Shown here piece after piece: positions 15,293 to 61,696 of a stretch of DNA of 64,000 nucleotides. The notes below the pieces were generated by a model. The model was not told the origin of the DNA. It saw only the letters and a program-made list of their open reading frames with translations, and made no database searches. Made by a program: the position numbers and the translations under genes. Source of the DNA: Coffea arabica (Eukaryota; Streptophyta; Magnoliopsida; Gentianales; Rubiaceae); contig NC_092326.1 of assembly GCF_036785885.1 (NCBI RefSeq), forward strand, positions 39,022,287 through 39,086,286. Reading direction: 5' to 3'. Every line of letters starts with the position of its first letter. Within the stretch, counting starts at the first letter, position 1.

Positions 15293-15352
15293 TAAGGTTA
15301 CATTTAATTGTGACAAATTGGTGAATTTTTTAAGTAAGTTTACATTTAATTG

Positions 15353-34811: not shown

Positions 34812-34953
34812 CTTTTTTTTTTTTGTCAATCGTCACTTTTACTATCATTATCTAAGGAGGAAACCCAACTGGGTTTAGAGGGTCGGTGAGGATTAAACCA
34901 TCATCGGATCAGACGGGTGCACTACGTATCTATCTGAATTTTTTAAAAAACTA
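34812..34953 (-). mobile_element. tRNA-derived SINE, copy 2 (more decayed)
   Basis: Same order as the copy at 15149-15292: a T run, GTCAATCG, then GGATTAAACCATCATCG (box-B-like on the minus strand) and TACGTATCTATCTGAATTTTTT. Box B has one or two changes from consensus. Confidence 0.45.
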
Positions 34954-35567
34954 CTAAATATAGCAATTGATGGGAAGTAGAGGTTACTTTGCCTCCTACT
35001 CCACCACGCCTTAAATAACTTAGTGGTGGCCACCAGCTCAGAGCCTGTGGTTGCAAAAGTTGACTTTGGGAAGGAAATGTTTATTGTTCCTTGTCTGTGT
35101 TGGAAAATATGCCAACCAAATGGAGCTAGAAAAATGTTTTTGTCATCTTGTGATCTAGAGCTTTTATGGTTTTGAAGAACGATAACTCCACTCTCAACCA
35201 GTGTTTCCAATTCTGCAATTAACAAACTGCAGAAATCCCGAACCAAGAAGAGTATCAATTGCATCTAAAGTCATACTTCTCAAGATTGAAAATTTAAGAG
35301 CCAAGGGTTTACCTAAGCTGATAATATTCTTAGAAGTCTAGAAGAAAATTGAAAATAAATTGTACGTTTGCTCAATGTATCAGTGTTGAACACTTCATAG
35401 AGGGAGGAAAGATTCTTTGCATAGTTCAGGTGAGATCAGAACCCTTATAATAGCTTCCAGATAGTTGATTTCATGTTGTCTCAGATCAAGTTCTTGCATC
35501 AATAATAAAGAAATATAAGCGTACAGAATCCTTCTTGCCCTTCGGCAGTAGTTTAGGAATGTAGTGC
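34954..35567. other. 3' flank of the 368-residue protein gene
   Basis: Probably includes its 3' UTR. The 123-codon minus-strand frame at 34893-35264 overlaps the SINE and has no domain. Confidence 0.35.
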
Positions 35568-36674: not shown

Positions 36675-37272
36675 GTCCACTCTTTGAAGCCGAAGTATTC
36701 ACCTTTACAAAGGGTCAGAAAAACGATACTCCTCTGTTGGATTTTGGCAATTTAAGAGAAGGTGGGAAGACTGCTTGAGTTAGAACGTGTAGGGCATGTT
36801 CCTCAGATCTATTAGTCGTGATTCCCATGTTTTCTCCTGACTCCGACAAAACTAATACTACATAGTCTCCAAGACAATTACTTAATGTACAGATTGTCAA
36901 AAGAGAGAGAAAGAAAGAACATAAAAATTGCCTTTCTTGGGACAAGTCTGATGAATTTTCAAGCTAGATCAGTAAAGCAACTATAGTTTGCAAAACTGCC
37001 AGGTTTAGGTGCAGACAAGAAAAGATAAAGTCTAAACAGAATGAGACCAAAAGACAATGAAACAAATTTACATAATAAGATGCAGAGGGCAGGATAGAGA
37101 CTGAAGCAAGGACAACTCAGTATACAAGCATATTAGAATGTTAACCACTAATAGTCTCGTTGACATATACAAGCTCAGATAAATCGACAACCAGTTGTGT
37201 CGTGAATACTTATGAGCTTATCTTTTGTGTCTGTGATGTGTGGAGGCTTTTATTGTCACACAGCAGAAATTT
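36675..37272 (-). other. Spacer between Y3IP1 and the 368-residue gene
   Basis: Should contain the Y3IP1 3' UTR and the leader of the downstream gene. A 76-codon frame at 36715-36945 is not supported. Confidence 0.4.
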
Positions 37273-40200: not shown

Positions 40201-43062
40201 AAAGGATAAAAAATGTGAAGTGGATAAACAGTGCAAGTAAGCAAAACTCAATACATCATGTAAACCATACCTAGGAACTGTATAAAAAAGATTTACAGCA
40301 TTTTTGTTTTCTAGTGTGATAAACAAGTCTTCTTCAACCATCACAATGACTTGAGCAAAAGAACTTCAATTAATCTTATGCTTCCATTTGCTAAACTAGA
40401 ATTACTGTCATTTGCTTAGCCACCCTGATCAATGTCAAAATGACCTTCTACATAACTTCAAGGAATGCTAATTAGTTACCTATATCCAAGATACATATTG
40501 CCCTTTGTAGCATGTGACAATTTGTCACTTTTGGTATTCTCTTCATGTTTTCAGAGCTACTTCAAGCATCTTATTTACCATATATGTCCTCTTAGTTGCA
40601 AGACTAATAACCTAAACCACTATGATCACTAAGAGGCAAAAATTTTCATTCGCTAATGCAATCCATAAATACGTGTGAGGATGAAAACCCAAATGGAGAC
40701 AGTAAAAATGATAACTTTATACAATTTACTATCACTCCTTTACTCGTCTTTGATGAAATAGTTCTCGTATTTTCCTTGATAATGAATTTTGGTGCTCTCA
40801 GTTGCTGGCAGAAAGACAAGATTCTTATTCTTGTCTTTTAAACAAGCATGCTGAACATATAAGCATTTTCAGGAAGTTCATAACATATCCCTAAAACGAG
40901 ATAAGAGATTATCTGCTTTGTTCAAAGATCTTTCCATTTGGTAAACTGGAAGTTACTGTCATTTGCTTAGCCACCCTGATCAATGTCAAAATGACCTTTC
41001 ATATAACTTCAAGGAATGCTAATTAGTTACCTATATGCAAGATATATATTGCTGGTTGTCAAGACATCCATACCCTTGATCTCTACTCTTATCTACTCAG
41101 AGTATAAAGATAACGTTCTTGACCTCTAAACAATATTCTTAGCATTTGCTTTTTCCATGTTTAGATGTTAAATGGTTAATGTTCCAAGAATTAAGCATGC
41201 CTGAATTTCATTGGTTAATTAGCTATTTTAGGTCAATTCCAGCATAGTCTCTGTCAAAGAAAACTAATCTTATTATAGTTAAATTCACATAATCATGGAG
41301 CTTCCGATATTGAGTTATTCTATAGACAAAACTAATACTACCAATAAAAGACATGTTTCTGTAGTCACAGAGAGTTTGAACTCACTTCTTCTAAAGCATC
41401 AGCCAAGTCATCCCTTGTTGGAGCATTTTCATCATCAATGCCAAGCAGCCGTCTCCTCTCAGCATCCCTGGGGTCTTCAATCATTACAGTTAACTTTATC
41501 TGCAGGTACATAAAGAGTTAATTGCTAAAGAAGCTGCAATAGAAGCACAAATTCAGCCATTGCCGCAGCAGAACAGAACTAGAAGAACAATTATTCAGAG
41601 GATGGAGAAACAGTGATAAATGATTCAAATAACAAATGATGCCAAATGACACACTGGGTCAAATTCAGCAGTTGATTTCCGTGCTACTTTTTACAAATAT
41701 GAAATTCAAGTGAAGCTAGAAAGCAAAAGAGGTGAGAAAATTAAGATCCACAAATGCCAAACAATTACAATAATAATAATACTAATAACATCTGTATTTT
41801 GTGACCCAAAAACAAAGGCAAATCATGAATGCTGTTTCCCCTCATTCCCATAACACGGCCAACTCTTGATACAAAGCCCAGGAACAGCAGTCCCAGGGAA
41901 AACATCAGAGCTCAAGGAACCAAGAAAAATGGGTGGAAACAACCTGAATTAACTTGTACAAGAAGCTAGTAGGCAAAAGAATCCAGGATGCTGAACTAGT
42001 ACGAACTTCCTGCTATGCCAGTAGGTCAATGAACGGGACAGGTCCCACCAAGAAAGGGGTAATGCTGAGCAAGTAAGAACTCGGCCCCTGATCTACTATT
42101 CTAAAAGCACGTTCAGATGCGTTTTCAAGCTTTCCTTTTGCCTTTTAAATTTTCCAAGCATTAGTATTTTGATTTCCACCCAGATGTGATTTGAATTCAG
42201 TCCTCCCACTATACTAACTGTTTTGGTCTCTGTCATCTAATTCATGAACAAACACAAAATTCAGGTTCCAATCTTCAAATTGCAGAATACAAAAGTACCA
42301 CCCAAGCCTGATTAACAAGTTCCATTAACTTCATATTTCACTAAAAGAACAAAATATCAACATGTTTTGTGCAAATGCTTGCAAAAGTATACATTGCAAT
42401 TTCATACTATAAACCAGAAAGAACAGAAAATTTCCAAAACAAAAGATAAAGCGAACCTCATTAAAGGTCATATCCCTGTTTTTCCCGAGAAGCTCCAAAA
42501 CCTACATAATTTCCAAGAAAACAAAATCAAAAGGCGTTACCACAAGCCTACTGTATCCATTCAATAGAACACAAAGATAGACTAAAAAACCACTAGGACA
42601 CTTTAACAAAAACCCCAAAACAAAAGCAAACAATTACAGAAGTAATATGCGGGTTTTGTAAAGATCACTGACCCTTTTGATTTGAGAGACGTATTCAAGG
42701 TCTTCAGGGTCTGGCTCATCAGTTTCTTGTTTTGCAGTGGAAGTAGAAATGCCAGACGACGTCGCACTAACTTCAGTGTCTTCAGCATTACTAACACACA
42801 CAACCCACCCTCCTCCATTGCTTCTTCTAGTTCTGATACTTCTTCTCCTCCACTTCCCATCATAATCACAGTCGCAGTGGTGGTCTGTCCTCAAGAAAGG
42901 TGAAAGCCTCCGGTCTTTACACAATGAAACACTAGAAAGTCTGTCAGGAAAGGAAGGACTTTTTGATGCAAAGAGTGATAACGATGATGATGACGAAACA
43001 ACTGAGGTTTGGACAACTTGTGAAGCCATCACATTTCTGAGTGTAATTGCACCAGAATTCAT
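37273..43062 (-). CDS. Y3IP1: Ycf3-interacting protein 1, chloroplast photosystem I assembly, six exons
   Basis: Nuclear-encoded thylakoid protein that works with plastid Ycf3 in assembling photosystem I; also described as CEST, a stress-tolerance protein. Exons on the minus strand are 42673-43062, 42457-42501, 41386-41499, 39465-39545, 38465-38632 and 37273-37362. All borders are GT..AG and all introns are in phase 0, giving 295 residues. Residues 1 to about 60 are Ser-rich and basic like a transit peptide. Signature segments are EYVSQIKRVLELLGKNRDM, EDPRDAERRRLLGI, EEMISWPNLE and TGIDPKEAAKRLNVDWD. An acidic stretch follows, then a C-terminal membrane helix (GYGALYLVTALPVIIG..) ending NSLQ. 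An internal Met12 is an alternative start. The donor at 38464 is GTTTGA, a weak site; reading through it would stop one codon later and drop the membrane helix. A transposon and inversion breakpoint sits about 330 bp upstream. Confidence 0.93.
40382..41051. repeat. 120-bp direct duplication within a Y3IP1 intron
   Basis: 40382-40500 and 40932-41051 are close copies (shared ACTGTCATTTGCTTAGCCAC and CTTCAAGGAATGCTAATTAG), 550 bp apart in intron 39546-41385. Non-coding; they could be tandem-duplication products or two small repeat insertions. Confidence 0.75.
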
Positions 43063-43391
43063 ATTCCTAGTATCATTCAGCTTGAAATTGCAAATGGGAT
43101 TTCTTCAAGGCAGCTGCTACGCTAGTCGGAGCATACGTAGTATTACTGAAACTCTGGAAATTTTTTTGGTGGCTGCTAAAAGAGATTGAGCTGAGTCGGG
43201 ACTCGGGAGAAAAGCAATGGTGGGTTGTGTTGTGGGCGCCGTGCTGCCAACTCACACCTCTGAGTAAAACTCAAAACGCAGCCGTTGGGTTTTGTTTTCT
43301 ACTTTCTTCCTTTTTCCTTTTTTTTTTAAATATTTTTGCTAACAGTGTTGGATGGCATTTAAGAAGCAAGGAGAAGATGGTGGAATTACTA
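43063..43391 (-). promoter_or_regulatory. Remaining proximal promoter and leader of Y3IP1
   Basis: Only about 330 bp separate the Y3IP1 start codon from the Mutator-like element, so all more distal original promoter sequence has been displaced or changed. No TATA box could be chosen with confidence. Confidence 0.4.
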
Positions 43392-44293
43392 CGCAACGGA
43401 TCCTCTGTACCACACCCTATCTCACACCCTATCCCACATCTCCTAAACTTGCCAAGTGTCCTTTTATTAACCCAATCCTGAAATAACCCAACTCGAATCA
43501 TGTTTAATTAATTAACCGATTAATCGGGTTGAGAAACTTAATCTCTATAACCAGATGCAATTAAAATAAAAACCCAAAAAACAAAATTAGAGATTAAACA
43601 AGGCACAAAAAAAACCCACAAAATTCGCGCAGGACAACAAAGTGCAATTCAACGCAGCAGGCTACGATTCTGGTTTCCCATCAGATTGGTATCCTTCTCA
43701 AAAGGTTCATCGCAACGCAGCAGGGCTGTCCGAGTTCATCATCTTCACCATTCAGCTTTGACGAAATATTCACGGATGAAGCTTTGAAGCTCTTCCCAAA
43801 GGTGAGAAACAACTTATTTCTTAAAAACCTTGGTGGGAAACCTTCGAAGCTCTTCGCAGGCCAATTTGATGTGATTTGCTAAGCTTAGGCACTTGATCTA
43901 GTTTTCAACTTCAAATTGGTCTGTTGATACACACCAATTGAATTAGTTTAGGAGAAAAGGCTTTAGTTCCCAGACCACGAAAGTGTTAATCTCTGCAGGG
44001 ATGCGTTGCGATGAAGCTTTTGAGGAGGAGTGAAATCTGATGGGAAACTGATTTCGTGGCCTTGTAGGATTTTTTTTTGTGCCTTGTTTAATCTATAATT
44101 TTGTTTTTTAGGTTTTTATTTTAATTGATTTTGGTTATAGAGATTAAGTTTCTCAACCCGATTAATCGGTTAATTAATTAAACATGGTTCGAGTTCGGTT
44201 GTTTCAGGATTGGATTAATAAAAGGACACTTGGCAAGTTTAGAAGAGGTGGGATAGGGTGTGAGACAAGGTATGGTACAGAGGATCCGTTGCG
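43392..44293. mobile_element. Mutator-like long-TIR element, copy 1 (902 bp, deleted form)
   Basis: Ends CGCAACGGATCCTCTGTACC and its inverse. The terminal inverted repeats match for about 225 bp at roughly 93% and then, after an indel, for about 60-110 bp more. It encodes no transposase. Compared with copy 2 (55855-57398, opposite orientation) it lacks 642 internal bp; the deletion joins at a shared TAGTTT. The base after the right end begins GTCAAAGAT (44294-44302), which pairs with the flank of copy 2 as a 9-bp target duplication. The left flank GAATTACTA (43383-43391) has no partner. Confidence 0.85.
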
Positions 44294-44296
44294 GTC

Positions 44297-47200
44297 AAAG
44301 ATTATTGTTGAAAGATTGAGGCACTTACTTAAGGAGCTGGTGGGGCCGAAACATGCCAGCTTCATTCTTGGGCGTCAAACGAGTGATAATATCATCATCG
44401 TCCAAGAGCTTTTGCATACAATAAGGAGGATGCACGGAAGGAAAGAGGCCATGATTATTAAGGTGGATTTGGAGAAGGCTTACGACAGGATTAGATGGGA
44501 ATTTCGTCAACAAACGCTGGAAATGGCAGGGTTTCCACCGAACCTTATTAAGCTGGTAATGAATTGTGTTCAAGTAGATGCAACATCTATTCTATGGAAT
44601 GGGGAAAATCAAAAGTGTTTACTTCATCTAGAGGATTGAGACAAGGGGATCATCTCTCACCTTACTTATTTGTATTGTGTATAGAAAGGTTGAGTCATAT
44701 GATATCCCAACCTGTAAAGGAGAGGAAATGGAACGGAATTAGAACTTCAAGAAATGGGCCAAGGATCATGCATCTATTATTTGCGGACGATCTCCTTTTA
44801 TGTGCAGAGGCCACTCCAGAGCTAAGCTAGGTCGTCTGCACTGTTATGACTGATTTCTATAGTATTTCTAGGTAAATGACAGGGTGTCGAACCTGTGCAA
44901 TAATAAATACCTACTTAAATAAAATATAATTTCTGTAGATAGTGATAAGTATGGTCGAATCCACAGGGACTGGGGATAATTTATTTCTTTTAAAATCCGA
45001 AGTATGGGGGGTTTTTGAAAATGAGAGTAACTAAATTGCTTGGAATAAATTAAAATAAAATAAAACAACTACAACTCAAATAACTAATTATCACAATAAA
45101 AATAATAACAGACGAACTCTAGCCAAGAGACAACTTCGGAGATGGTTCACTTAATTCGATCACAGATGCAAGGATTATTCCAGTTACTATCTGATAAATT
45201 AGTTATAGTTGTCATACACGCGATAAACAACCAACTCTTCCTCAATTTGTCGATAGCCAAAGTACGACCGTTGACTATTTCTCTAATCAGGAAATAACCC
45301 TAGGTACGACCATAGAAGTTCAATTCCCTAATTGCATGAATAATTAGAAGAGCCTAATTCTAACCAATCAACACGCTACGAGGGTCTCTTTAAGTTAGCC
45401 TGTCTATCTCCCTGACACAAATCCAATCATGCCAGTTGCCACCAGTTTAGAATAATTAAACAATTACGGATTTAACTACCCTAATTGGCTTCAGGTTATT
45501 GAATTAATCTAGAATCCGCGCCCTGGATAATCGAATAATAAAACAACCAAATGAACATAAAGCAGAAGATAGACGAATACCAGTGAATAATGGAAATAAA
45601 TAAAAACTAATTCGAACTCACAAATTTAGTAGAACCAAGTCCTCCGTTGTTTCTCGACTAGACGAGAAACTTAGCCACTCCTCATGAGAAAATCTCCAAG
45701 TAATTTAACTGAGATCCAGGCCATCAAAGGAACCAAGAAAGAATAAAACTAAACTATGCTAAAAGGGTCCCCGTAGCTTTTCTTATGATTGTCCTTATAT
45801 AGCCAAAGGGAAATGACTAAAGCTATCTATCCAGTGGTCCCCACGAATAAGGAACAAAAACAACTCTTTGCACGTTGTTTCCTTTCAATTCAAATGACTA
45901 ATGCCTTTCTTCTCTCCGTGGTCCCCGCACAAATTGAGGAAGGAGTGTACATAAAGTGAAGTTCTCTGAAGTCCTTCTTTCTTTAGTTTCCTCTTGATAG
46001 TCAAACATTTCAACACTCCAAGATACTCCTAATCCGAAAAAAAGAATGCAGTCCGCGTATATTACCATGTGGGCCAGGTCTGTGGCTTATTTAAAGTCTC
46101 AATTATTTTCAGAAAGTCCCTCCTTTTTTGTAGTTTTCTGCTTCACTCCCTGAAATTAGGTCCAATACCAAATATAAGTAAATATTAATAATTAAAACAA
46201 TATTTGACAAGGATAAAAGAGAAAATTAACAATAAAATTGCTAACAATTAACACCCTATCAGTAAAAGATCAACATGTTGAAAACAAAATTCTGCTCACA
46301 AAATAGGGGACGAAGTGTAAGGAGGGAGATAAGCAAGATAGTTGGGGTGGAGGAAATTAAAAACTTGGTAAATACCTCCGTATTCCACTAGTGCATTTAA
46401 GAATTAGTAAGAGCACATATATTCCAATGTTAGATTTGATACGGACCAAACTTGCGGAATGGAAAAGGAGAAATTGATCATTTGCAGGAAGGACAACTCT
46501 AATAAAGTCAGTGCTCTCAGCAATTCCTACTTATCACATGCAGACTACAATGATTCCTTTTTCAATCTTGAAGGAAGTAGAGAAGTATCGAAGGAGCTTC
46601 CTTTAGGGAGATAGTGAGGATAGTAGAAAAATCCAACATGTCAACTGAAACACTGTAACACAAGCAAAAAAATGAGAGGGAATCGGAATTAGAAGACTCA
46701 AAAAAGTGAATAAGGCACTATTGGTCAAGTTTGCCTGAAAATTATCTAAAGACAATCAATCACTTTGGAGAAAAGTGATTGAGGGGAAATACTTTAAGGG
46801 GTCAACAGGAATTCATTCATCAGCCAAAATTGGAGACTCCTATTTGTGAAAAAGTATTGTCAAAGGCCGTGATCTACTAGAGAAGGGAGTCCAATGGAAG
46901 ATAGGAAATAGAGAAATAGTGCAATTTTGGAAGGATAAATGGGTAGGAGAAACAATACTTTTGGAGGAAACAGAGAAAGAGATACCGGAGGAGGAGGTAG
47001 AGCAGAAAGTGGCGGAATATTGGAAATCAAGTGGCTGGGATATAGGAATGCTACAAGAACTGTTAACTCCTGAACAAGTTCTTAAGATAAGCAGCTATTA
47101 TGTTTTTCCAGGGATGGAAAATCCAGACACCTTTTGTTGGAAACCCAAAGCTAATGGGCTCTTCACAACTAAATCAGCGTATGAGCTGGATTGGGGAGAG

Positions 47201-47420
47201 GAGGAACTGCACGAAAAAGCATCAGGATGGGAGAAACTTTGAAAAATGAAGAGATCGGGGAGATAGTAGTTCCTCCTATGGCTTGTAAGGCAGGGAAAAC
47301 TCTTGACGCAGGAAGAGAAAACAAAGAGAAGGATAAGTCCCATTGCTCAATGTCCAATTTGTAAGATAGATATTGAGTCAACTTTGCATGCAATTAGGGA
47401 TTGTAAATAGATATGCGATA
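44297..47420 (+). pseudogene. LINE reverse transcriptase C-terminal part, decayed
   Basis: Recognisable blocks are IIVERLRHLLKELVG, VDLEKAYDRIRWEF, SRGLRQGDHLSPYLFVL and the catalytic LLFADDLLLC (FADD at 44779-44790). After the solo LTR, RTTLIKSVLSAIPTYHMQT and a WKPKANGLFTTKSAYEL region follow. There is a frameshift near 44600 and several stop codons. This polymerase copies LINE RNA at the target site in intact elements. Confidence 0.8.
44877..46261. mobile_element. Solo LTR, 1385 bp, with 5-bp target duplication
   Basis: Begins TGACAGGGTGT, ends ACACCCTATCA (TG..CA) and is flanked by GTAAA at 44872-44876 and 46262-46266. Removing it with one GTAAA restores contiguous LINE sequence. No internal retrotransposon genes, hence a solo LTR left by LTR-LTR recombination. 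Superfamily not determined. Confidence 0.8.
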
Positions 47421-47728
47421 TTTGGGGAAAGTTCGTAAGACCAAACAGATAGGAGTAGTTCTTGAATAAGCCTTTGTAATAGTGGCTAGACTGGAATTTG
47501 AAGGATGGAAGGATTGGGGTAGGAGGGTTGACAGAGTGGCAAGTGACATTCCAACATATAGTCTATATCGCATGGGCTACCAGAAACACCTTTTGTGCTA
47601 CAGGAGATGCAACTAAAATAAAGGTTGATCATAAAGCCATTTGTGCGGGGAGTGGAACAAGTGAAAGCTGCACAACAAGGGAGGTGAAACATGTTAAATG
47701 GGAAAGACCTCCAACGGATTGGTGAAAG

Positions 47729-48123
47729 ATGAATGTGGACGGAGCAGCAAGTAAAAGGATGTGGAGAGCAGGGGCAGGAGGAGTTCTCAGGGATAACTGG
47801 GGTTGATGGGAGTCTGAATTTGTAATGAGGTGGGTTTTGCAGATAATATATCAGCAGAGTTATGGGGACTGCTTAAGGGATTGGAGCTGGCGTGGGTTTC
47901 GGGACGGGAAAAAATAATACTAGAGATGGATTCAAAAGCTGAAATTGAGCTTCTTAGAGCAGCGGGTAGGGAATCCCCTTATCACAACATGGTTTGCCAG
48001 ATCGGAGTTATGTTAACAGGGACAAGAAATGTCATCTTTAGCATTCATGGAGAGAAGCCAATGGTTGTGCAAATTGGCTTGCAAAATGAAGCATTAATCA
48101 GGTGCCAGGATTGTTGCTCATAA
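47729..48123 (+). pseudogene. LINE RNase H domain, decayed
   Basis: KMNVDGAASKRMWRAGAGG, AELWGLLKGLELAW and ILEMDSKAEIELL match the plant LINE/RNase H fold with its Asp and Glu positions. Stops separate the blocks. The domain would degrade RNA in RNA-DNA hybrids in an intact element. Confidence 0.75.
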
Positions 48124-48240
48124 CGGACCCTCTTGGAGAATTTAGGGCATTGTTAGGAATGGATATTGTTGGGGTTGCGACCCCATGTCTAGTCTCGATT
48201 TAAGAGACTCGGCCTCTCCCCTTGTGAGCAAAAAAAAAAA

Positions 48241-49352
48241 CTAAGAAAAAAGAAACTATTCAACCAAAAATGTCGACAGTGATACAATAAAAATAATAAA
48301 ATATCTTACTATTTAGAAATAAAAATGAAATTGAAAAAAATTAAATAATAATCATTAAATTGCAAAATTTACTCCCAATACAAAATAGACAAGGAAAAAA
48401 GAAAGAGGCTTTGGTTTTTAACATAACACTCTAAGAGCCAAAAGGCGTTACTGTTCATTTTTTTTTGTCGTCATCACGTGCCATAAGCATGCCTTCAGTA
48501 TTTTTTTTTTTCGCGCGACCCGCGGGTTGTCAGCTTAGGGTTAAACACACAAAATACTTCTTTCCTGACTTTCCAAAGCCTCGTCGCCGCCGCTTCTTCT
48601 TTCCTGCCTTTCCTTTCCAAGATTATAATGCCAAAATCTTCAATACGTTTAAGCCTCCTCGCTCTTTGCTTATTTTCTTGTAAGTTTGTAATTTTCTTAC
48701 TCTTAGTTTCAATGCCAAAGGGGGAGAGAATAAAAAATTGAATGAAAAGAAGGAGATGGAGATTTTAGAAGCTGGTGCTAGATCCTCCAAAGCACGCCAA
48801 CATCATTTCTAGCTCAAGGTTTGGGACTTTTCTTTGTTTTTCCCAAATTTATTCTCCTTCGTTATATATATTTTTTCTCAGAAAGCTCCTTCATTCTCCG
48901 TTCAAATCAGATTATTTTTTTATATTATTGTTCCTTATTTTTCTTACCCTTTTCAAATCAGGTGGCTTTTTTGACGTGGTTGCTCTTCATCTTTAAAAAA
49001 AAAAAAAATCTACAAGAAACTGTTTATCCTCCGTCAGTTCAGGTAACTTTTCTATAAGACCTCCCTTTGCCCTCTCTGTTTATTTTCTTATGTGCTTATA
49101 TTTTCTTTTCCTTTTTAAAATGCATAGAAACCCTTTGAATTGGGATGTGCGAAGGTACTGATGCGTTTCTAAAGGGCTTTTGAATGATTTATTTCTATGC
49201 AGCAAACTGAACAATATGAGGCAAACAGAAATTTCTAATATAAAGTGTTTAATTTCTATGTTTTATTTTCTTTCTTCCTGTACTTCATCTTTTTTTTTTT
49301 AAATTTTCTTTTTGGTCAATGACATTTTTGGGTTTGATGGAAGCCTTTGAAC
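48241..49352 (+). promoter_or_regulatory. Upstream region of the recA-like fragment
   Basis: Starts just after the LINE poly(A). Includes a GC-richer patch at 48510-48610 and pyrimidine-rich tracts that look like a promoter and leader. A 72-codon frame at 48465-48683 has no domain. Confidence 0.3.
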
Positions 49353-50767
49353 ATGATGGCGAGGCTTCTCCGAAATGCTTCTTCTCTCGAATGCCTCTGT
49401 TTTTGCAACCTCTCTCTCCGGTAATTCCCCACCAAATCAGATTTTGTTCTTATTTTCTTTGTATTTTTGGAGAACAATTTGGTTAGGATTAATGATAGGT
49501 AATGGCCTGTTGTAGAAATTTGAAGCATTTTTTAAAAAAAATTTCATCTTTTTCTCAAATATGTTTTTCATAGCTTTGTTGAGTTTCAATGTTTTTACGC
49601 TACGTTGTCTTGTTTGTACTATTCTTTTGAAGTTATAGGTGCAATATATAGTGTTTATACTTGTTATTAGCAGTTGGAAGCTGCAAATAAATGATTATAA
49701 TATTATTTCCTATCAATTATGAAAGCCAAATGCTTTACTTTGCTAGCTTGCAGAAGTTGTTCCTTGTTTTTAAAATTATTGAACTTGCATACTGTATAAA
49801 GAAAAAATCTTTTAATTGTTTGATACGTTTTCTAACATCATTTTTCAGTTAGTACTGCTTTTCTTTTTTTTATTTTGTTTCTCATTTTCTTCACGTGTCA
49901 TGACATGAATTTGTTGTTTGTTGATGCAGACTTTATAGGAAAGTCTTGTTAGGGGCATACACTCAACTCTCCTACTTTTCCTCCAAAAGGTACCCGAAGT
50001 TTATTTTCCTGTTGAACTGACTTGCATTTGGTTTTCATACCTTCTTAACTTGGTGATCACTTTGATTGGTTTCAAAAATAGATAAAGTAAAATAACTTTT
50101 GCATATAAAGTCGATCTTTTTAGGCTTTAGCCCAATTAAAACTAATACATATATTTGCTTAGTGTTTGAATACTTCAAACATCTTGTTTATTTAATGTGA
50201 CAGTTGCATGTTTTTCCCCTATATTTTGGGGTTTTCTGTTGACTAAAAAATTATAAAGCACCAAAGTATGCAAGTGTATTACCATATTTTAGCCTTGTAC
50301 CTCCCTCCTAGAGTATTCTAACATTAAATGCATCATTCTTAATGTAAAAATCACTTGACCCTTTTCCCCCATGTGATTCTTTGAATTAGATGAGTTCTTT
50401 TAAGTATAGCTCTTTTGCTGAAATTTGTAGAGTTTGATATTTTTTACATTTGGCTGGGATTGTGTTATTCCTGCTTGAGAGTACCTACATTTTGCTCTTT
50501 CTGCAATAGAAAAATATCAATTGTTTTTTTTTTTTTGCTTCATTGGTTCATTATGAATATAAGCCATTTTTTGTATGGAAGGTAGAAGAAAATCCAAGTC
50601 AGACATCAAAGAAAGATTTGGTGCTCAAGTCCTATCAGATCACTACATCATTTGGAAAAGGTTCTATCATATGGCTTGGCCGCTCTGCCCCTGTCAAACA
50701 AGTTCCAGTTGTATCCACAGCTTCATTTGCTTTGGATATTGCATTTGGGATTGGAGGACTTCCAAAG
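49353..50767 (+). pseudogene. 5' fragment of a mitochondrial-type RecA recombinase gene
   Basis: RecA binds single-stranded DNA and drives strand exchange; plant nuclear copies serve mitochondria and plastids. Three exon-like pieces are visible: 49353-49420 (MARLLRNASSL.., organelle-targeting-like), 49930-49989 and 50582-50767. The last reads [16 protein letters not shown], then [19 protein letters not shown] ending LPK at a GT donor, the start of the RecA core. The Walker A exon expected next (GPEASGKTT) is nowhere in the window. The join from exon 2 to exon 3 is out of phase, so an exon is missing or the gene is broken. It lies in the segment inferred to be inverted, between a LINE and a solo LTR. 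Likely a truncated pseudogene. Confidence 0.7.
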
Positions 50768-52002
50768 GTTGGACATCTTATGTGTTTCTTATGCTGCAAT
50801 GCCAGATGTTGATTTTGAATTATTGTTTCAAGTGCACTAAACATCTGCAAATTTCTAAAGAATCATATTGACATTGTTTTAGAGTGCAAATATACTACTA
50901 AAAGGACTTCTCTCTATCTAATTGGGACTTCAACTAATAGTTGCTGTAATTATTCTTGGTTTGAATATTTCCATTCTGATTTATCAGTATTTGCAGTTTC
51001 CAAACTGTATAGCAAAAGAAAAGCTTTGTCTTGTTCTTGAAAACCTTCACTGAAATGGAAGCTTTTAAATTACTTTGTATCACTATTGGTTTCTGTTAAC
51101 CTTATCATTTTGTATTACTATTGGATCTGTTTGATGTAATTGGAGTAGTGCATTTTGGCATCAGGCAATATTAGTAGTTCCATGTCCATGGGAGATGTTA
51201 CCATCCCCAAGCAATTCACTCAGGCTGGCTTATGGGATTGGCTCATAACTTCCATTTCTTGCTTTTAACATGAATACATGAAGCTTCGTTATACCTCTAT
51301 TTTCGCCTGATTTACATGAATCTTTTTCTTAGCAGAAACTTAATGCAACAATCCTGACAGGTGATTTTACTAAATTGGATTTTGAATCCTACAATGGGCC
51401 TTCCAGAGGATATAATCAATTGGGGAGCATTGGATACGGCACTGAGTAGTTCTTTTTGAAGTTAAGAAAGCAGCAGTTTCACGTAAGCAAGAATTGGCTT
51501 AGATAGCATACACTCATCTTGAGGTATAGGACTCGATACAGTTCCTTCTCTTCTGTGCTTTTCCTTTTCTTTCTCAATTGAAGATTAGAAATATAGGACT
51601 TCTTTATGATCAGTTGTATTTGTTCTGTGTTTCTGGAGTCTGAAAAACCTTAGCAATTATTAAGTGTCAAATATTAAGTTTCAATTATTATAGCATAGAA
51701 AATTTCCCTATAAAGGCTTCTATACAAACCTTGGTTTTGCCTTTATAGGTATAGAAATATCCCTTCATGATTTATAATTTCTTAATACTTCTTATCACAT
51801 GCTAAATGAAGAATTGAGCTATCAAACCTTAAATTTTTCAGTCACAAAAGATTTTAAATTTTAGATCTAGAAAACACATTATTCTTAGATGAGAATATCT
51901 AGAGCTTCTCCAAGGATAAAAGCAACTATGCAATCTAACTTACATGTCAATGCCTCTAACTTTTGGAATGGAGTATTGTTTTAACATAACAAAAAGATGT
52001 TC
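50768..52002. other. Stretch after the recA-like fragment; no gene seen
   Basis: No further RecA exon could be found on either strand. A short exon-like piece bounded by AG near 51360 is not recognised. Confidence 0.4.
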
Positions 52003-54710
52003 TGTAACAGCCCCACTTTCCCCTAAGGCGAACCAAAGGGGTGAGCGGACTGCCTGCCCAACTCTCACTAGGACTAACGATGCAGACCAGAACTATCTAT
52101 AGCGATCCGGAACTTACAAACGAGCGTAAACAAGTCAAAATGGTAAAATAACCCAAAATAAAAAAAATGAAATCCGGAGTCGGCCATGAATAGTAACCGA
52201 CCCGTCAGAACCCAACCGAAATAGCTAACAAACATTCACATCTGAACTTTAGCGTTTACAAATCAAAATGACATACAAAAGTTTTCAAAAGTTAATATAT
52301 ACACATGGTTTGCCAAATCAAAAGAGAAAACGCCCCAAAAGTACACTTAGGGTTTTAATACATGAGCTATACAAAAGATATGTTCGACTAACTCAATTTG
52401 TCAGCCATTTGTCAAATCCAGACCAAAAGGGGTTTATTTTCCTGTAAGGAAAACAAAAGTAACAGAAAGGGGTGAGCTTGCGCTCAATGAGGTACCAAAC
52501 ATATAGCAGAAAAATCATGGCATTTCACATTTTACAAAATCAGATACACATGCTAGATGTAAAGCAAAGGAACCAAGGATTCAAATCAGAAGGATACGGG
52601 TGGCTCTCAGGAGCCAAATTTCCAGCGCCGTACTTGATCCAAATCGGTTGACTCTCCGTCAACGTATATAGAACCAATGCGTCCGTAGACCCCTCTTTAC
52701 ACCGAATTCCGTCCACCAAACACCCCTTTACCGGGCCCGCTCACCGTAACCGAACAGAAATGGTAATACTCGAATATACCTGGAATCAAGGGTCTCAATA
52801 CCCAAAATCCCCAAACAGACTACCGTGGTTCGTTATCTAATCGTCCAGGCCCTTGCCGGCCCGACTCGAATAATTTAGCCACAGGATTGAGCTCATAGGT
52901 CATAGAAATCCGAACAGATGCAGACACAGATAACAGATTCAGATAGGCACTCAAAATTGGCATATGGACAGACAAGAGAACGAGTGTGATAAAGTACACC
53001 CTCGTCTCCAACAATTAAACAGATTGCAGAGCAAAAATCAAGTTAAACAGCAATGGAGGGGAGTGGTACACTCACCGGCTCAACTTCAAAAGTTTTCACT
53101 TCAGATTGGCCTTAATCGCCAAGAAACCCTAAAATAATCAAAATAAACCAATGCCAACCACAACCCCAATAAGGTTTCATATGCATATATAAGCATGATA
53201 GCAAACCAGAAATTAAGAAAAGGGCTTTAACTTAGACCTTGATAAGAAAACCGGTTTTGACGTCATAATGCGGTAATGGCACAACTCTCACTACAATTAT
53301 CGGATGGGGGTGTAAGACCCACCGTTTCGAAGCTATGGAACAGGGCTACAACAATGTAGAAGGTCATTCAATCCAGTTCCTAGCCCAACTAGGTCAAAAA
53401 TGCCAAACACTAAACCAGAATCACCAAAACAGGTTTGCAAAACACAGAAAACTGTAATCGGTATATCTCAGTCCATACAAGTCCAAATGCCGAAATTCCA
53501 AAGGCATAAGTTAGCTAAGACATCCAGCTACATTTCATCAGAAGACACCAACTTCAAAATCCAAACCAATTCCAGTCAAAAGGGCCAATTACTATCGCAG
53601 TTTTCGCATTCGGATCAAAACGGAACAGCTACAGTAAAAATGGCATAACTCATTCTACACTCATCCAAATGACCTGAAATTTTACAGGCACCTCAAACAC
53701 ATCAATACCTACAACTTTCATGTTTTGAGAAAAGTCTAATTCGGCCTCTAACCCAGTGATCTAAAACCGGACAGAATTGGGATTTTATGAACCCTAACTT
53801 TCCATTTTTCACACCAAATCCAAAATTGATTGCATTTAACCACAATTCACACTCACTAGAGTCATAACCCCTCATTATCAACCATCATAAACAACCACAA
53901 CACCATGATCACATTAAACCAGAAAATTCCTCAAAAAAATAAAAACTTCACTAAATCAACTCAAACCAAGAAATAAATCACATAATCCACCACTTTGGCT
54001 CCCATTAGGCACAATTTAAACATCATTAAGTATAGGAGGAAGTGTAAGCTTCACTTACCTAGTAAACAAGAGAGAGGGAGATGTTGGACACCTTAGCTCT
54101 TCCAAAAACTTCACCAAACCAACCACTAACACCAACTAGAAAGATTTTATGGAGTGGAAACAACTTTAGTTGGTTGAGTTATGGAATTGGAGCAAGAGGA
54201 AATCAAGATTTGAAGAAGTTTTTTCTTCCTTTCTTGAGCTTGAGAGGGCCGGCCATAAGGAGGTAAGAAAGAGTGAATTTTGAGCAATTTTTTTGAGATA
54301 TTTACTCAATTAGTCAAAAGGTCAAAATAGTGAATAGTAAATCATAAAGTCCAACCAATGTCATGGTGACACTTGTCACCCCCATAAATGCATCATTATC
54401 TTTCTTTTTCCTCTCACATCAATCACTTCACATCCTCTACTTATCTCTTAACACCCGATAAATTTCACACAGTATCCGGAATTTAACCTAATTGGCCGAA
54501 TTTTTCCGAACTTTTTGCACTAGTGGGTCCCACGTCCAATATATATTCTTAATTTTCCAAAAACTCTCCAAGGCTAGAAAAATCATCTAAAAACTATAAC
54601 TGCTCATAAAATCCACCAAGAAAATATTTCTAAACCAGAAAATGCAGAAAACATGCAATTAAGGGGGAAAACCCTAGGAAAAAAATATTAGGGAAATACG
54701 GGTTCTCACA
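52003..54710 (-). mobile_element. Large solo LTR, 2708 bp, Ty3/Gypsy-like
   Basis: Begins TGTAACAGCCCCAC, ends GGGTTCTCACA and is flanked by TGTTC at 51998-52002 and 54711-54715. Read on the minus strand it begins TGTGAGAACCCG and ends GGGGCTGTTACA, as in long LTRs of plant chromovirus-type Gypsy elements. There is no gag or pol. The superfamily is inference from end sequence and length; the LTR borders and duplication are seen directly. Confidence 0.78.
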
Positions 54711-54715
54711 TGTTC

Positions 54716-55854
54716 TCCCTATAATGAATAAGTTTCCACTTTGTTTTTCCATTTCAGGATCATTCCATTGACTTTGTGTTCTGCCCCTTCATTGCTCCTC
54801 CTCCAAAAAATATAATAATATAGTTGCTATTTCAATTTTTCACTTTTATGACAACGGAATGAGTTTCATGTTTGGATACTTTGGAGTTAGAACTTGTCGG
54901 ATTTATCTTTCGGATTAGAATCATTTGTTGCCAGTTAACCTATTTCCAATTTCTTCCTTTGGGTGACATACATGGATGGCCATATTGCAATAGATTGCAT
55001 TCTGAATTCTTTTAAGTTCAATTTTTTGGAAATAGCAGAATAGCTAATTTATTTGCTTTGGTGGGATTATGAGTTACTAGGCAAGTTGCTCTAACCTGAC
55101 AACTTATAGGATGCTTTATTTCTCATTTCTTTGATACTTAATAATGGACAGAATATATACATGCTTCTCTTAAGAGGGGAAAAGCTGGTTTAAGACTTTG
55201 TATGAATATTACAAGTTTTAAAGTTGTCGAGTTTATCTTGTTTGTTTTGGGATCAATCAATGTCTCCTGACCCATTTTCAGTTTCCATGCATTGGTGACG
55301 AGATCCATTGCTAACTTCAATGGAATATATACTAAGATTTTATCGTTATAATTTTATGATTAGGTTGTCGCGGGAGAACTTAGTAAATCTTGCCATGGGG
55401 ACAGCAGAAACAAAATTGCTTTTGGATAGGGGAAAGATGCATTGTGTGTTTCAAGCTCTATGCCACATGCTTTCTTATTAGTTTATGTGATTAGTTTAGG
55501 ACAATTCTTTATTGAATTTATTAGAATCTCTATGTTATAGGTTTTTTTTGGTTAATCTGTAACTAAATTCCATCAGACACAAACAATTCCATTAAATGGA
55601 TCCATTTTGAATATGTACAAATCATTTTATTACACTGGGCATCTGCATTTTTTTTCCCCCACCATGCTAATACGTGATTTATGCATTAAACTAGGGAACT
55701 ATGGTAAGTAGGGTCATGGGATCGAAAAGAAATCATGTATCTATGGCATTATACATTTCACATCTAATGTATAGTATTTCTGCAAATTTCAAATCCTCTT
55801 GTATCTGTAACGACATTTCCTTTTCCAAAACAAGAGAACAACTCGGTTGTCGGA
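54716..55854. other. Stretch between solo LTR and Mutator-like copy 2; no gene seen
   Basis: AT-rich, with short frames only. It ends with GTTGTCGGA (55846-55854) at the element border. Confidence 0.4.
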
Positions 55855-57398
55855 CGCAACGGATCCTCTGTACCACACCTTGTCTTACACCCTATCCCAC
55901 CTCTTCTAAACTTGCCAAGTGTCCTTTTATTAACCCAATCCTGAAACAATCCAACTCGAACCATGTTTAATTAATTAACCGATTAATCAGGCTGAGAAAC
56001 TTAATCTCTATAACCAAAATCAATTAAAATTAAAACCTAAAAAACAAAATTAAAGATTAAACAAGGCACAAAAAAAAATTCACAAGGCCACGAAATCAGT
56101 TTCCCATCAGATTTCACTCCTCCTCAAAAGCTTCATCGCAACGCATCCCTGCAGAAATTAACACTTTCGTGGTCTGGGAACTAAAGCCTTTGCTCCTAAA
56201 CTAAAGCTAGTCTTCAATGGAGCAAGGTACGTAGGTGAATTTTTCTTCAAATAAGTACTATTCATATGCAACGAATTGCGTTATTCATGTAAACATCAGC
56301 ACAAGCCTTTGAAGTCAACCTGAAGCCTCTGAACTTAAAGAATTTATGCAAAGGGATTGCTGGGTTCCTTCAAATACTTACTCTTTGATGATTTTCGTTA
56401 AGTTTCAGGATTTATTTTTTTGGGTCTCTGTTGATTGAAGATCTATTTGCTTAAGATGTTTTTGTTCACAAATTTTTGTGCTTTTTGTGTTTGTATTGTA
56501 CCTGTTGATGCGTCTTTGAAAGGAGAAAATATCTATCCAGTCTTTTAACTATTACAAAAACAACGAAGAGTTTGGTTAATAAGAAGAATATTAAATATAG
56601 AATCACCAAAGTGGTATGAAAAGCAACATGGTAGGGAAAAGCAACACGCTGGGTTTGATATTGACTCCCTAGACCTCAGAGTTCTAAATGGTATTAGTTG
56701 CGAACTTGCTCCCTTTTTTAGCTGATATTACCACTATCAAAATTACTTTGACCGTGTAACATAGGATTAATACAAATGTCAGTATGTTCTGTACTGAAGT
56801 AAATTTGTCCAAAACTTTTTGGTTGAATATTGTGCTTCCAAAACTAATTCAATTGGTGTGTATCAACAGACCAATTTGAAGTTGAAAACTAGATCAAGTG
56901 CCTAAGCTTAGCAAATCACATCAAATTGGCCTGCGAAGAGTTTCGAAGGTTTCCCACCAAGGTTTTTAAGAAATAAGTTGTTTCTCACCTTTGGGAAGAG
57001 TTTCAAAGCTTCATCCGTGAATATTTCGTCAAAGCTGAATGGTGAAGATGATGAACTCGGACAGCCCTGCTGCGTTGCAATGAAGCTTTTGAGAAGGATA
57101 CCAATCTGATGGGAAACCAGAATCGTAGCCTGCTGCGTTGAATTGCACTTTGTTGTCCTGCCCGAATTTTGTGGGTTTTTTTTGTGCCTTGTTTAATCTC
57201 TAATTTTGTTTTTTGGGTTTTTATTTTAATTGCATCTGGTTATAGAGATTAAGTTTCTCAACCCGATTAATCAGTTAATTAATTAAACATGATTCGAGTT
57301 GGGTTATTTCAGGATTGGGTTAATAAAAGGACACTTGGCAAGTTTAGGAGAGGTGGGATAGGGTGTGAGATAGGGTGTGATACAGAGGATCCGTTGCG
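55855..57398. mobile_element. Mutator-like long-TIR element, copy 2 (1544 bp)
   Basis: Same CGCAACGGATCC ends and long inverted repeats as copy 1, but in opposite orientation and 642 bp longer inside. Its left arm equals the inverted right arm of copy 1 and vice versa. No transposase is encoded. On the minus strand an exon-like frame with SFDEIFTDEALKLFPK followed by GTGAG is shared with copy 1. The right flank ATCTTCGAC (57399-57407) is the inverse of GTCGAAGAT, matching the copy 1 flank at 8 of 9 bases. Confidence 0.85.
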
Positions 57399-57407
57399 AT
57401 CTTCGAC

Positions 57408-59400
57408 ACTATTTTGTAGTCCACATTACAAAGAGATATTGGTCTCAAATGGGCCACTGTCTCAAGGTTTTTCACCTTTGGTATAAGAGAAATGAGTGTG
57501 ATATTCACCCCTATTGGTAACTCCTTTTTACTGAAAACATCCTGGACCCATCGCACAAAAGAAGTTCCAACTTATAGCCAACATCTTTCGTAGAAGGCCA
57601 CGCATACGCCATCTGGTCCTAGTGCTTTGCATCCCTTCATATGAAATAAGGTCATCTCTACTTCTTGTTCACTCACTGTATGCAATAAAACACTCTTCTG
57701 CCTATTAGAGATAATTTTAAAACTATTCACCCATCCAGTACACAATATAGGGTCACTCTCCTTACTATAAAGCTCCTTAAAATGATCCACCACAATGCTC
57801 TTTATCGTTTTGTCATGTGTCTTCCCTATCTTTCAAACTGAGTATTGTACCTTTATTCCTTTTAATAATAGCAGACAAGTGAAAAAATCTAGTATTCTTG
57901 TCCTTACACTTCAGCCAGGTAATGCGAGACTTTGATACCAAAATATTTCCTCCTGTTCTAGTATTTCGTTGTATTTCCTCACTAGTTCCTTCTCCAACTT
58001 CTCCAGATAAAATGACTCACTTCGCTCTAGTGCTCGTTGAATGCCGCCTAATCTCGCCAAACATCTCCTTTTCTGCTGAAAAATATTTCCGAATACTTTC
58101 TTATTCTATTTCTTGAGCCTTTCAGTAAATGTGTTCAGACTTTTCAATAAGTCCTCATTCTTCCTCTAGGTTTGTTCTACTTCCTTCATGAACCCTTCGT
58201 GGTTTATCCAGGCCAATTCAAATCGAAAAGGTTTATGCTCTTTTCTTCCCTTTCCCCTAACATCCAACTCTAGTAACAGAAGATGGTGATCCAAATGCAC
58301 CCGGATAAGGTGTGTGACAGCTGTTTCTGGAAAAAGAGTTTTCCACGTGTCATTACATGTGCCTCTATCTAGTCTCTTCTTTACTCTTGCCCCTCCTCCC
58401 CTGAGGTTATTCCATGTCAAAGTTGAGCCACTGAACCCCAGGTCAATTAATTCCCAACTACGGATGCAATTTATGAAACTGTTTTCATGCTTTCTCTTGA
58501 ACAGTCGTCCATCTCTTTTTTCCTATGTACTCACCACTTCATTCAGATCTCCAATAATGAGCCATGGAAATTTAATTCGAGACCCTATTAACTTAAAATA
58601 TTTTCATAGTTTTTTACGTAGCTTTTTTCTTCTGGCGAGGCATACACTGTGGATAATAGCCACTCCTGTCCAGAGTTACACTTTACCACTACATGTATAA
58701 ACTGTCAGTTGGTACTCAAAATCTCTATTTCTACTTCAGAGCTACTCCAAAACATCCATATGCCCCCAGAGAAACCCTCTGCTTCTACACAATTTTTCCT
58801 ATCATAACTGAAACTGCTCAGTATCATTTCAACCTTCTCACTACGTGTTCTAGTTTCCATCAGAACTAAAATCTTAGGTCTATGCTAAAGATGCAAGTCT
58901 TTTAGATTCCTCCAAAACTGTCGATTTGCTGCTCCCCTGTAGTTTCAAGTCAAGATTTTTAAACTAACCATAACAATTATTAATTGACTTGGTATCCCTT
59001 CTCTCCGTCGGCTTGCTTAGCCTATCCCATCCCAGCATCTTCTGCCCCTGCTTCTTCGCTTTCACCACCCAAGTTTATTGCTTCTTCCAGTAATGATATG
59101 GAGGCGCTAACTCTTTCAAATGAATCCTACATCTCTTATTCTAAAGAACCTTTTGAAAGGTCTCCCAGATCTACATCCTCTACTCTTGTGTCTCTCTCTA
59201 TTTCTCCCGATCAGTCAAGTATATCTTCGTACTCCATTGGATCCCTTAGTATTACACGCGGTTGAGAAGTTGATGGCTCTCTCAAAATGTCTCTTACTTT
59301 CGAACTCCCTTTGGTGGGTTCTTTTCCTTTCTTCAAAAATGCAGCCTTTTGGGGAGCAAGTGCTTTGCTAATTTTTGGGAGCCTAACCTTCATGGTAGCT
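57408..59400 (-). pseudogene. LINE ORF2 N-terminal part: endonuclease and start of RT, decayed
   Basis: The endonuclease-like stretch at 58166-58420 has ARVKKRLDRG and AVTHLIRVHLDHHLLLL, typical of the C-terminal part of plant LINE endonucleases. The RT start at 57408-57793 has KALGPDGVCVAFYERCW and HLRPISLCNVDYKIVSK. Interrupted by many stops. In an intact element this part nicks the target and primes reverse transcription. Confidence 0.75.
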
Positions 59401-59799
59401 TGCTAATCGCTATGCAGATTTTTACTAGAACAGTTAAGCTGGTTATCCTTTTCTTTCATTCCTCCAACATTCTTGTTGACACTCTTGAAAACTATTCCAT
59501 GCGAAGGGCTTGGCACATTGATAAGCTTCTCCTTAAGTTGTTCCCTTGAATCCGTTCCATCTTGGTTGATGTCCTCCTCCACTATTTCGTTAAACACTCC
59601 AAATCTGGAACCTATATTCCTTTGCACATTTGCCCATGCCACTATATTTGGCCCCACGTCCTATGTTGGACTCTTTCCCTTCCTATTTAGGTCCCCGTTA
59701 AATTCATCCTGCGATTGTACGTCCTATTGATAGTTTGCACCTGGTATCGGCTGGGCTGTCCCCATCTTAAACCTGTTGTCAACTCTTGTTTGTTACCAT

Positions 59800-60784
59800 C
59801 TATTGCTCGTAAGGCTTGCTTTCTGCTTCCTGCTCCTTCTTTTCTCTTTCCCTCCTCTTTTCCTCCGAGGTTTCACCAGAATCCTTCTTTTTCCTATGAC
59901 AGTTAATTGCTACGTGTCCATATCTACTGCACTCAAAACAAATTGCTTCTAGCCTCTCATACTCCACTACCTGGAGCTCTCTGTCTACATAGACAAATGG
60001 CACTAGTGCCTGCTTCAAGTCTACTTCTACGCACAGCCACGCATATTTGCCTCTTGTAGTGGATATGGTCTGATAGTCCACCTTTATAGCTTTTTCAAGC
60101 GCATTACCTGTCCGTAATAAGAATGCCTCACCATAATACTTAACTAGTAAGCCAGGAAGTCTAACCCATACTAACGTGGCTTTGATGTCTGCATTCGTTG
60201 GTCGAAATTCCGGTCTCCATTTGTTAATAGTTATATAGTGCCCTTGTACTGTCCATGGTCTCTCTTGGTAATCGGCTTTGTTCCTGAAACGGGAAAGAAA
60301 GAATCCATTCTCCAGATCTAGTAATTCGAAATCTTCTTGGAACGCCCACACTTCCCTCAACCAGTTTTTTAACACTTTAAAGCCTACCCGTCGCCCTAAA
60401 ACTTTAATTAGAAGACTCCTCCTCCATGGCCTCCAGAATTTTAGGATTTCTTCCTGCTTGGAATCAACTCTAGGAAATTTTGATTCCCTGATTTCATCGT
60501 CTTTCTTCAAATCAAGATCCGAAAATTGTGGATCCACATCAAAATCCACATCTTCTCCTTCCCATCATAGAACTCCCTTGATGACTTCTCTATTTTGAGT
60601 GTTTCCAAGAATGACTTCCCCTCCCTCCCAGTATCTTGTTCCTAGATTGAGGCTTTGCATATGACATCCATTTGGCATATGTATTGCAATTTGCCACTAG
60701 CTCCCCTGCAGATTGCCGTTTAAATTTCTTCTGCCCTCTACTTACTTCTTCTTGTTCAGAATTCAGATCTTTATTTTGAGTCAT
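59800..60784 (-). pseudogene. LINE ORF1 (DUF4283 with CCHC zinc knuckle), frameshifted
   Basis: A probable ATG at 60782-60784 opens MTQNKDLNSEQEEVSRG. After a frame change near 60590, a 249-codon frame has the DUF4283 fold (FWRPWRRSLLIKVLGRRVGF, ERPWTVQGHYITINKWRP, WVRLPGLLVKYYGEAFL). The zinc knuckle CFECSRYGHVAINC (CX2CX4HX4C, about 59899-59940) and a charged tail follow. RNA-binding ORF1 proteins coat LINE RNA. The first frame and the long frame do not join without a shift. Confidence 0.8.
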
Positions 60785-60866
60785 GTTTGCCGCAACTCTT
60801 CTTCAACAAGGCTGCTGAGCCCGAGGGAGCAACTTTTTTCTGTTGCACTTGGCTTTGCTATAAAGA

Positions 60867-60942
60867 CTTTTTTTTCTTAATTGAAAACAACGTAAATGTA
60901 GCACTACTTAAACTAAATAGGTTCAAGAAGATTAGGTTTTCA

Positions 60943-60973
<31 letters not shown>

Positions 60974-61306
60974 GATAACACTCATGAGTATCAATTCATA
61001 TCGGACATGATATCAGTCTTTGGATAATTTTTTTTAGAAGTTTAAGTTATTGAATGATATGGCAAAGATTTATTGAATTTCAATTATGGGTATACTATTT
61101 TAACATGAATATCCACACTATTTCAGCAAGAATGTGTGAGACTATTTGCCAATATACATCTTCTCAACTTTTTCTAGGATGTAAAAGGTAGACGGCATAT
61201 GAGAGTTCCATAGTTGCTATAGAAGATGATTGCCGTTTGAAGAGTTTTTGTAGAGCTACATTGATCTTATTCTATGAAATAGGAGAATTAAAAAGATGAA
61301 GGCCCG
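60867..61306. other. AT-rich spacer with (TA)n
   Basis: Contains a (TA)n at about 60949-60973. No gene. Confidence 0.4.
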
Positions 61307-61696
61307 TTTGAGATTGCGGTAACTTATTGAAAAATATTTCTCTAAACACAGTTTTTAATAAAAGTACTTTTTAACTATTTAAGTGCTTTTAAATATATTA
61401 TTTGGAGACATAATTCAATAAGTATTTATTATATTGGATAATGTGTAATTTGAAAATTTTTTAAATTGCTTGTCTTTTTATTTGGTTCATAATATAGGAT
61501 AAGATAATTAAATTTGATGTCTTATTTTTAAAATCACAAAAGTTACTCTAAAATCACCAAATTTGAGTTTTTGCTAAAAGTACTTTTAATACCAAAAGCT
61601 CAACTCCTAATTTTGCGGGATGATATTCACCAAACACTTTAAAAGTACTTTTAGCACCTTAAAGTACTTTTTAACCAAAAGCGCAGCAAATGGGGC
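61307..61696. mobile_element. MITE with GGCCCGTTTGAGATTGCG-type ends
   Basis: About 390 bp. The left end GGCCCGTTTGAGATTGCG and the inverted right end AGCCCCATTTGCTGCGCTTT are imperfect inverses. AAAAGTACTTTT words recur on both sides, giving a foldback interior. hAT-like by its ends, but the target duplication is unclear. Confidence 0.5.

Follow-up and report, generated by a model that had tools for sequence, protein, structure and literature searches.

Introduction

Inversion between transposon copies is an already known sort of event. The model case for ectopic recombination between inverted transposons is the Galileo-generated inversion 2z3 of Drosophila buzzatii, for which both target duplications are reported as recovered and both element copies as chimeric (PMC2775673). 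In maize, an account of Ac/Ds elements states that inversions made by reversed-ends transposition carry a new duplication at their breakpoints, and that those made by non-allelic homologous recombination (NAHR) do not (PMC8225341). Citrus CitMule elements are reported to have 9-bp duplications in most copies and "dissimilar" flanks in some (PMC4334395), and a rice pan-genome inversion index reports that Mutator-like elements (MULEs) and long terminal repeat (LTR) elements are enriched at inversion breakpoints (PMC10030860). Here, we describe a locus of Coffea arabica at C17:39022287-39086286, hereafter the window (the whole stretch of DNA analyzed, 64,000 nucleotides), in a genome assembly of 1.198 Gb in 131 contigs that also holds a counterpart of the locus on contig C18. 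Judging from the sequence, an interval of ~11.6 kb between two MULE copies was very probably flipped in the real history of this locus, splitting an older long interspersed nuclear element (LINE).

Like Galileo 2z3, the C17 locus has two DNA transposons in opposite orientation at the breakpoints, an exchanged target duplication, and a single copy of that target in the uninverted chromosome. It differs from 2z3 in that one duplication was recovered and ~176 bp were lost on the other side, and in that its element is MULE-like with a 9-bp duplication (P superfamily and 7 bp in Galileo) and its marker is the split LINE. As in the maize Ac/Ds account, ends of DNA transposons would have caused the inversion, but the C17 locus has no new duplication. 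The citrus event was a deletion rather than an inversion, and CitMule elements have a transposase domain. The rice index is statistical, and its passages on breakpoints do not reconstruct exchanged duplications, whereas one is reconstructed here. Because the general phenomenon is well described in the literature cited above, we regard the C17 locus as a new instance of it, although an unusually complete one. Among titles and the first lines of abstracts we recognized no plant inversion between paired MULEs with exchanged duplications, which is not a claim that none is in print.

Results

Uninverted order on C18

The interval 44294-55854 (11,561 bp) is bounded by two related MULEs, A on the left and B on the right (Table 1). 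We compared the window with C18:36145000-36184999. In window coordinates, C18 reads 34745-43388 (+), 48418->47886 (-), a C18-only insert, 47890->46262 (-), 44879->44294 (-), and 57399-63050 (+), so that 44294-48418 is reversed in C17 relative to C18; the C18-only insert of 12.7 kb interrupts the counterpart of the inverted part. The pieces were 94-97% identical to the window (86-90% at the edges of the comparison). Substitution divergence was 1.5% on the left side of A and 4.0-5.3% across the inverted part; the LINE 5' half had diverged by 4.3% and the sequence past it by 2.7%. Compared with C18, C17 differs in three respects: the insertion of a Helitron-like element, two related MULEs inverted relative to each other, and the inversion of the shared sequence between these MULEs. 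In C18, the LINE is uninterrupted at this point and has a single 9-bp site, and un-inverting 44294-55854 raised the number of collinear identical bases from 14504 to 16227.

The C18 counterpart may be a homeolog or, if the plant is a hybrid, the haplotype of its second parent. We take its order as ancestral because the LINE is continuous there, because the 12-bp duplication of the LINE is in register, and because un-inverting the window improves collinearity. The present C17 order was rejected as the ancestral one, since the LINEs of C18, C4, C3, and C11 are all unbroken at the break point. The original prediction, made from the letters of the window, was that a MULE inserted into the LINE and that 44294-55854 was then inverted, and it had pointed to related haplotypes as a check. 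The uninverted order and continuous LINE of C18, together with the swapped 9-bp copies described below, support this.

Table 1. Features of the C17 locus in window coordinates
Feature	Position	Strand	Remarks
CTA remnant	43389-43391	-	Probably the three 3'-terminal nucleotides of the Helitron-like element (reverse complement of TAG in ...CTAG), beside MULE A
MULE copy A	43392-44293		902 bp; terminal inverted repeats about 223-230 bp; left inversion boundary
LINE 3' half	44294-48241	+	Begins inside reverse transcriptase and runs to the A-rich tail; reversed compared with C18
9-bp target copy GTCAAAGAT	44294-44302	+	Identical to the single copy in C18, C4, C3, and C11
Solo-LTR-like insertion in LINE 3' half	44877-46261	.	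5-bp duplication GTAAA; absent at this place in C18
LINE target duplication (12 bp), 3' copy TAAGAAAAAAGA	48242-48253	+	
Helitron-like element	48419-55854	+	Without ~176 bp of 3' end; RecA-like exon stretches; nested LTR-like insertion
Solo-LTR-like insertion in Helitron-like element	52003-54710	.	5-bp duplication TGTTC; absent from C15 and C8 copies
MULE copy B	55855-57398		1544 bp; family of A, inverted relative to A; right inversion boundary
LINE 5' half	57399-60867	-	DUF4283 ORF1 region to start of reverse transcriptase; 5' limit set by LINE target copy
9-bp target copy GTCGAAGAT	57399-57407	-	One mismatch; plus strand reads ATCTTCGAC
LINE target duplication, 5' copy TAAGAAAAAAAA	60868-60879	-	One mismatch to TAAGAAAAAAGA

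The two halves of one LINE

Both LINE halves stop inside the reverse transcriptase at ends of one MULE family, and the coordinates and flanks predicted for these ends were confirmed. With a single copy of the 9-mer kept at the join, the halves read ...PISLCNVDYKIVSKIIVERLRHLLKELVGPKHASFILGRQTSDN..., with the frame open on both sides and stops due to decay further out. The joined piece matched Pfam RVT_1 with 64.9 bits (profile positions 5-107) and the 3' piece alone with 42.0 bits (from profile position 24), while the 5' piece alone had no match at E<=0.001; the open frame and the rise in score agree with the proposed continuation of the coding frame across the join. The ORF1 region matched DUF4283 (78.5 bits), and a zinc knuckle scored 22.5 bits, under its cut-off of 27. 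The element shows the features of plant LINEs, namely reverse transcriptase, DUF4283-containing ORF1, A-rich tail, and target duplication. TAAGAAAAAAGA stands at both LINE ends in C18, and the two window copies come into register only once 44294-55854 is un-inverted; this A-rich 12-mer would be weak evidence if taken alone.

We then searched the same genome using the final 1102 nucleotides of the 5' half as query, which gave 18 other matches. Both halves were matched (E<=1e-4) in 17 of these 18 loci, on one strand in all 17 and in register within 3 bp at 15 of them; two loci (L022 and L027) overlap and represent one and the same LINE element, and the remaining locus (L029) matched one side only. 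The closest relatives by search identity were those on C18 (96%), C4 (89%), C3 (88%), and C11 (86%), and in all four the two half-alignments overlapped by exactly the 9-bp target. Identities to C18, C4, C3, and C11 were 95, 88, 87, and 86% for the 5' half and 94, 90, 89, and 87% for the first 583 bp of the 3' half. The halves thus have similar identities to the same relatives, contrary to an origin from different subfamilies, and appear from their sequences to fit one element. Independent LINE fragments were rejected as a candidate by the continuous LINE at C18.

Exchanged target duplication

The four element flanks can be paired in six ways. Only the right flank of A (GTCAAAGAT) and the right flank of B (GTCGAAGAT) matched well (8/9); the others matched at 0-4 of nine positions, and the chance of at least 8/9 in any of six pairings is ~0.001. 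A target duplication belonging to each MULE separately was rejected, the left and right flanks matching at 2/9 for A and 4/9 for B. The copies of the 9-bp target in the LINE are therefore shared out between the two MULEs on C17. Since all four close relatives carry a single GTCAAAGAT at the break point, the simplest reading of the mismatch is that the 5' copy mutated afterward. The left flanks of A (GAATTACTA) and B (GTTGTCGGA; reverse complement TCCGACAAC) matched at 0/9.

The predicted 9-bp duplication with one mismatch at the LINE-side ends was accordingly the best of all pairings. The expectation that un-inverting the interval restores a normal LINE with one insertion holds for the LINE target duplication, but the second MULE gains no duplication and ~176 bp beside it are gone. 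This missing duplication is a gap beyond the earlier account, and can be explained by the loss of the 3' end of the Helitron-like element.

MULE copies A and B

A and B, which lie in opposite orientation, align over 901 sites with 20 differences, and ~642 bp of B are absent from A. A third copy, E3, was found at C1:50380229-50381775. All three have long terminal inverted repeats (A, 230 bp with 215 identical; B, 223 bp with 206; E3, 237 bp with 217). Directly past the 9-bp duplication of E3 lies the apparent terminus of another element of its family. Target duplications of MULEs measure 9-11 bp; the two family members inspected elsewhere (C1 and C3) both have perfect 9-bp duplications, and A and B share 8/9 between them. 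The C3 member is 5.6 kb long (C3:66761899-66767473, duplication GCCGGGAGG). In this one long member that was read (5575 bp), no transposase-like long ORF was recognized by eye and the longest ORF (182 aa) had no Pfam match at E<=0.001. Because the C3 copy has no recognizable transposase, the assignment to MULEs rests on terminal repeats and duplication length, by which A and B are probably non-autonomous Mutator-like elements.

In a comparison against E3 and those of six outgroups covering each site, A and B had derived bases in common at positions 93, 658, 678, and 852 (probably also 877). These four or five shared derived bases make A and B the closest known relatives of each other, and they look like sisters.

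A Helitron-like element around the second MULE

The segment 48419-55854 had no counterpart in the C18 stretch. In a repeat search with 54300-55854, 40 of 7297 candidates were scored; among the matches listed besides the window itself, 20 fell in the non-LTR part (from 54710) with identities of 86-94%, 19 of them on contigs other than C17 and the remaining one at another place on C17. Since 12 of these 20 listed matches reach 55854, we suspected an element ending there, and rejected this because sequence similar to the family continued past 55854 in all seven loci looked at. The whole next 180 bp were matched in five (C15, C4, C12, C14, and C8), which run on for 179 bp to CTAG followed by T; in the other two, L047 (C9) and L048 (C17), only the first 39 of the 180 bp were matched. 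The five 3' ends read ...TTTATCTCTCCTAG after a GC hairpin, which on the C15 end was predicted with z -2.2 (6 of 200 shuffles as good). The family thus has the 3' hairpin and CTRR end of Helitrons, and the window copy is without that end.

At the other end, the C15 and C8 copies start at window positions 48415-48418, and all six 5' ends read (window included) begin TAACATAACAC after T. The insertion site is T^T instead of the A^T before a 5' TC, unless the element starts one base earlier, and for this reason we call the element only Helitron-like. Copies with both ends seen (C15, C8, C4, C12, and C14) had no target duplication beyond a single T. Relative to C18, the insertion in the window is flanked by TTA on either side, which leaves the site ambiguous by 3 bp; C18 has an apparent empty site, GTGGAATTA/AAACC, with TTA common to both sides. 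The outer side on C17 reads GTGGAATTA-CTA-[A]. The inner side of the second MULE, at 55854, is 179 bp short of the Helitron-like end, and ~3 bases remain on the outer side. As copies elsewhere continue past 55854, the second MULE lay inside the Helitron-like element. A native spacer deleted from C18, through the shared TTA, would also account for the difference between the contigs; this origin is disfavored by the dispersed repeat and by the empty site in C18.

RecA-like exon stretches lie near 49350-50770; their joined product matched the RecA domain PF00154 (36.5 bits), and PDB RecA chains were matched too. We read them as probably three exons of one captured gene. The region containing them is common to the window, C15, and C8 copies. 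The copies at C15:38665404, C4:19829316, C12:7307594, C14:19170128, and C8:4852613 belong to the same Helitron-like family. Within each of two sets, C15 with C4 and C12 with C14 and C8, the fetched 3' parts were 99.9% identical, which suggests a recent spread of the family.

The inverted interval of the original prediction is supported as such and refined in content: it holds the Helitron-like element and two solo-LTR-like insertions, and the second MULE lay inside the former. The Helitron-like identity of 48419-55854, its RecA exon pieces, and its truncated 3' end are new beyond that prediction.

Origin of the inversion

Our confidence in the inversion itself is high, and its best explanation is probably ectopic recombination between two inverted MULEs. 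The LINE insertion would predate the divergence of C17 and C18. On C17, the Helitron-like element with its RecA exon pieces would have landed 165 bp beyond the 3' target copy of the LINE, a MULE (E1) would have inserted into the LINE with a 9-bp duplication, and a sister MULE (E2) would have been present in the 3' end of the Helitron-like element, where ~176 bp including one side of the E2 duplication were presumably lost. Crossing-over between E1 and E2 may then have inverted the interval. The swapped 9-bp duplication, the ancestral order on C18, and the near-identical elements in inverted orientation fit what ectopic recombination predicts: copies in opposite orientation stand at the breakpoints, an uninverted relative exists, and an exchanged duplication was seen for the LINE site (8/9, single in C18), the other pair matching at 0/9 where ~176 bp are missing. 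That no newly made duplication is present at the breakpoints favors NAHR over reversed-ends transposition.

Several observations weigh against this explanation. Un-inverting does not recover the target duplication of E2, and the ~176-bp loss demands an extra step; the mismatch of the two left flanks can be explained because these ~176 bp beside the second MULE are gone. The CTA remnant comprises only three bases and is weak evidence. The junctions are taken from the assembled sequence, and the whole uninverted order is shown by one counterpart (C18). Of the 17 LINE loci, L023 (32 bp shorter) and L024 (414 bp longer) carry indels that fall on the break or close to it. Crossing-over between two elements predicts chimeric copies, and no parental copies closer than the distance between A and B were found, these two being mutually nearest. 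Their sister relation suits a local pair that recombined, but also the duplication of one MULE in a one-step event.

In such a one-step event, the ends of the two sister-chromatid copies of a single E1 would act jointly after replication on targets ~176 bp apart in the Helitron-like element, an alternative transposition with unlike target sites that yields the inversion, the second copy, and the deletion at once. It would account jointly for the absence of a second duplication, for the ~176 bp lost, and for the sister relation of A to B. Both ingredients have published parallels: an inversion flanked by two copies through aberrant transposition from one site (PMC2775673, Fig. S1 legend) and, in citrus, a MULE whose two ends adjoin different targets ("dissimilar TSDs", target site duplications; PMC4334395). 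However, an ordinary joint insertion duplicates 9 bp where the element lands, and no such duplication is seen; an unusual two-target insertion is demanded, and the ~642 bp lacking inside A must have been lost afterward. We consider this scenario unlikely. A misjoin of contigs through the ~900-bp near-identical inverted repeats would likewise yield identical swapped flanks, but A and B are distinguishable at 20 of 901 sites and by the ~642-bp indel, and such a misjoin would not do away with the need for the two MULEs and the Helitron-like element to have inserted. The small number of contigs (131 for 1.2 Gb) and the absence of N bases from the window also suggest a long-read assembly, and an artefact of this kind seems very improbable. 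We found no evidence in support of two different LINE copies or fragments abutting the two MULEs by chance, which the single break base of both halves, their similar identities to four relatives, the exact continuity in C18, and the open frame across the join make scarcely credible.

Under ectopic recombination between inverted MULEs, the inversion is an outcome of recombination between inverted repeats for which we see no function. Its left boundary falls upstream of an open frame at 42637-43062 (-), ~330 bp from the first ATG; the gene start is inferred, and the frame had no Pfam match. The sequence upstream of this frame consequently differs between C17 and C18. The locus is small and fully bounded, and comparison with the uninverted copy in the same genome gives the relative order of its layers (LINE, Helitron-like element, and MULE pair). 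It also shows that transposon-made inversions can be sought within a single assembly by looking for an older transposon that was interrupted together with a 9-bp duplication that was exchanged.

Other features of the window

The C18-only insert (C18:36156338-36169034) and the LTR-like insertion at window 44877-46261 have similar ends and occupy different places of one LINE; they start ..ACAGG..., CGAACCTGTGCA and end AACACCCTATCA, each with a 5-bp duplication. The LTR-like end at 54300-54711 had 99-100% matches at a series of places in C17:20624992-20656214, mostly ~3.6 kb apart, as if a piece of the LTR had turned into a tandem repeat. A search of a plasmid collection with the window gave zero matches. 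Rfam matches at the gathering threshold were limited to two U5 small nuclear RNA genes, both outside the inversion region, at 23124-23243 and 32995-33114 (-), which lie 9.9 kb apart, each within a copy of a duplicated unit of 254 bp.

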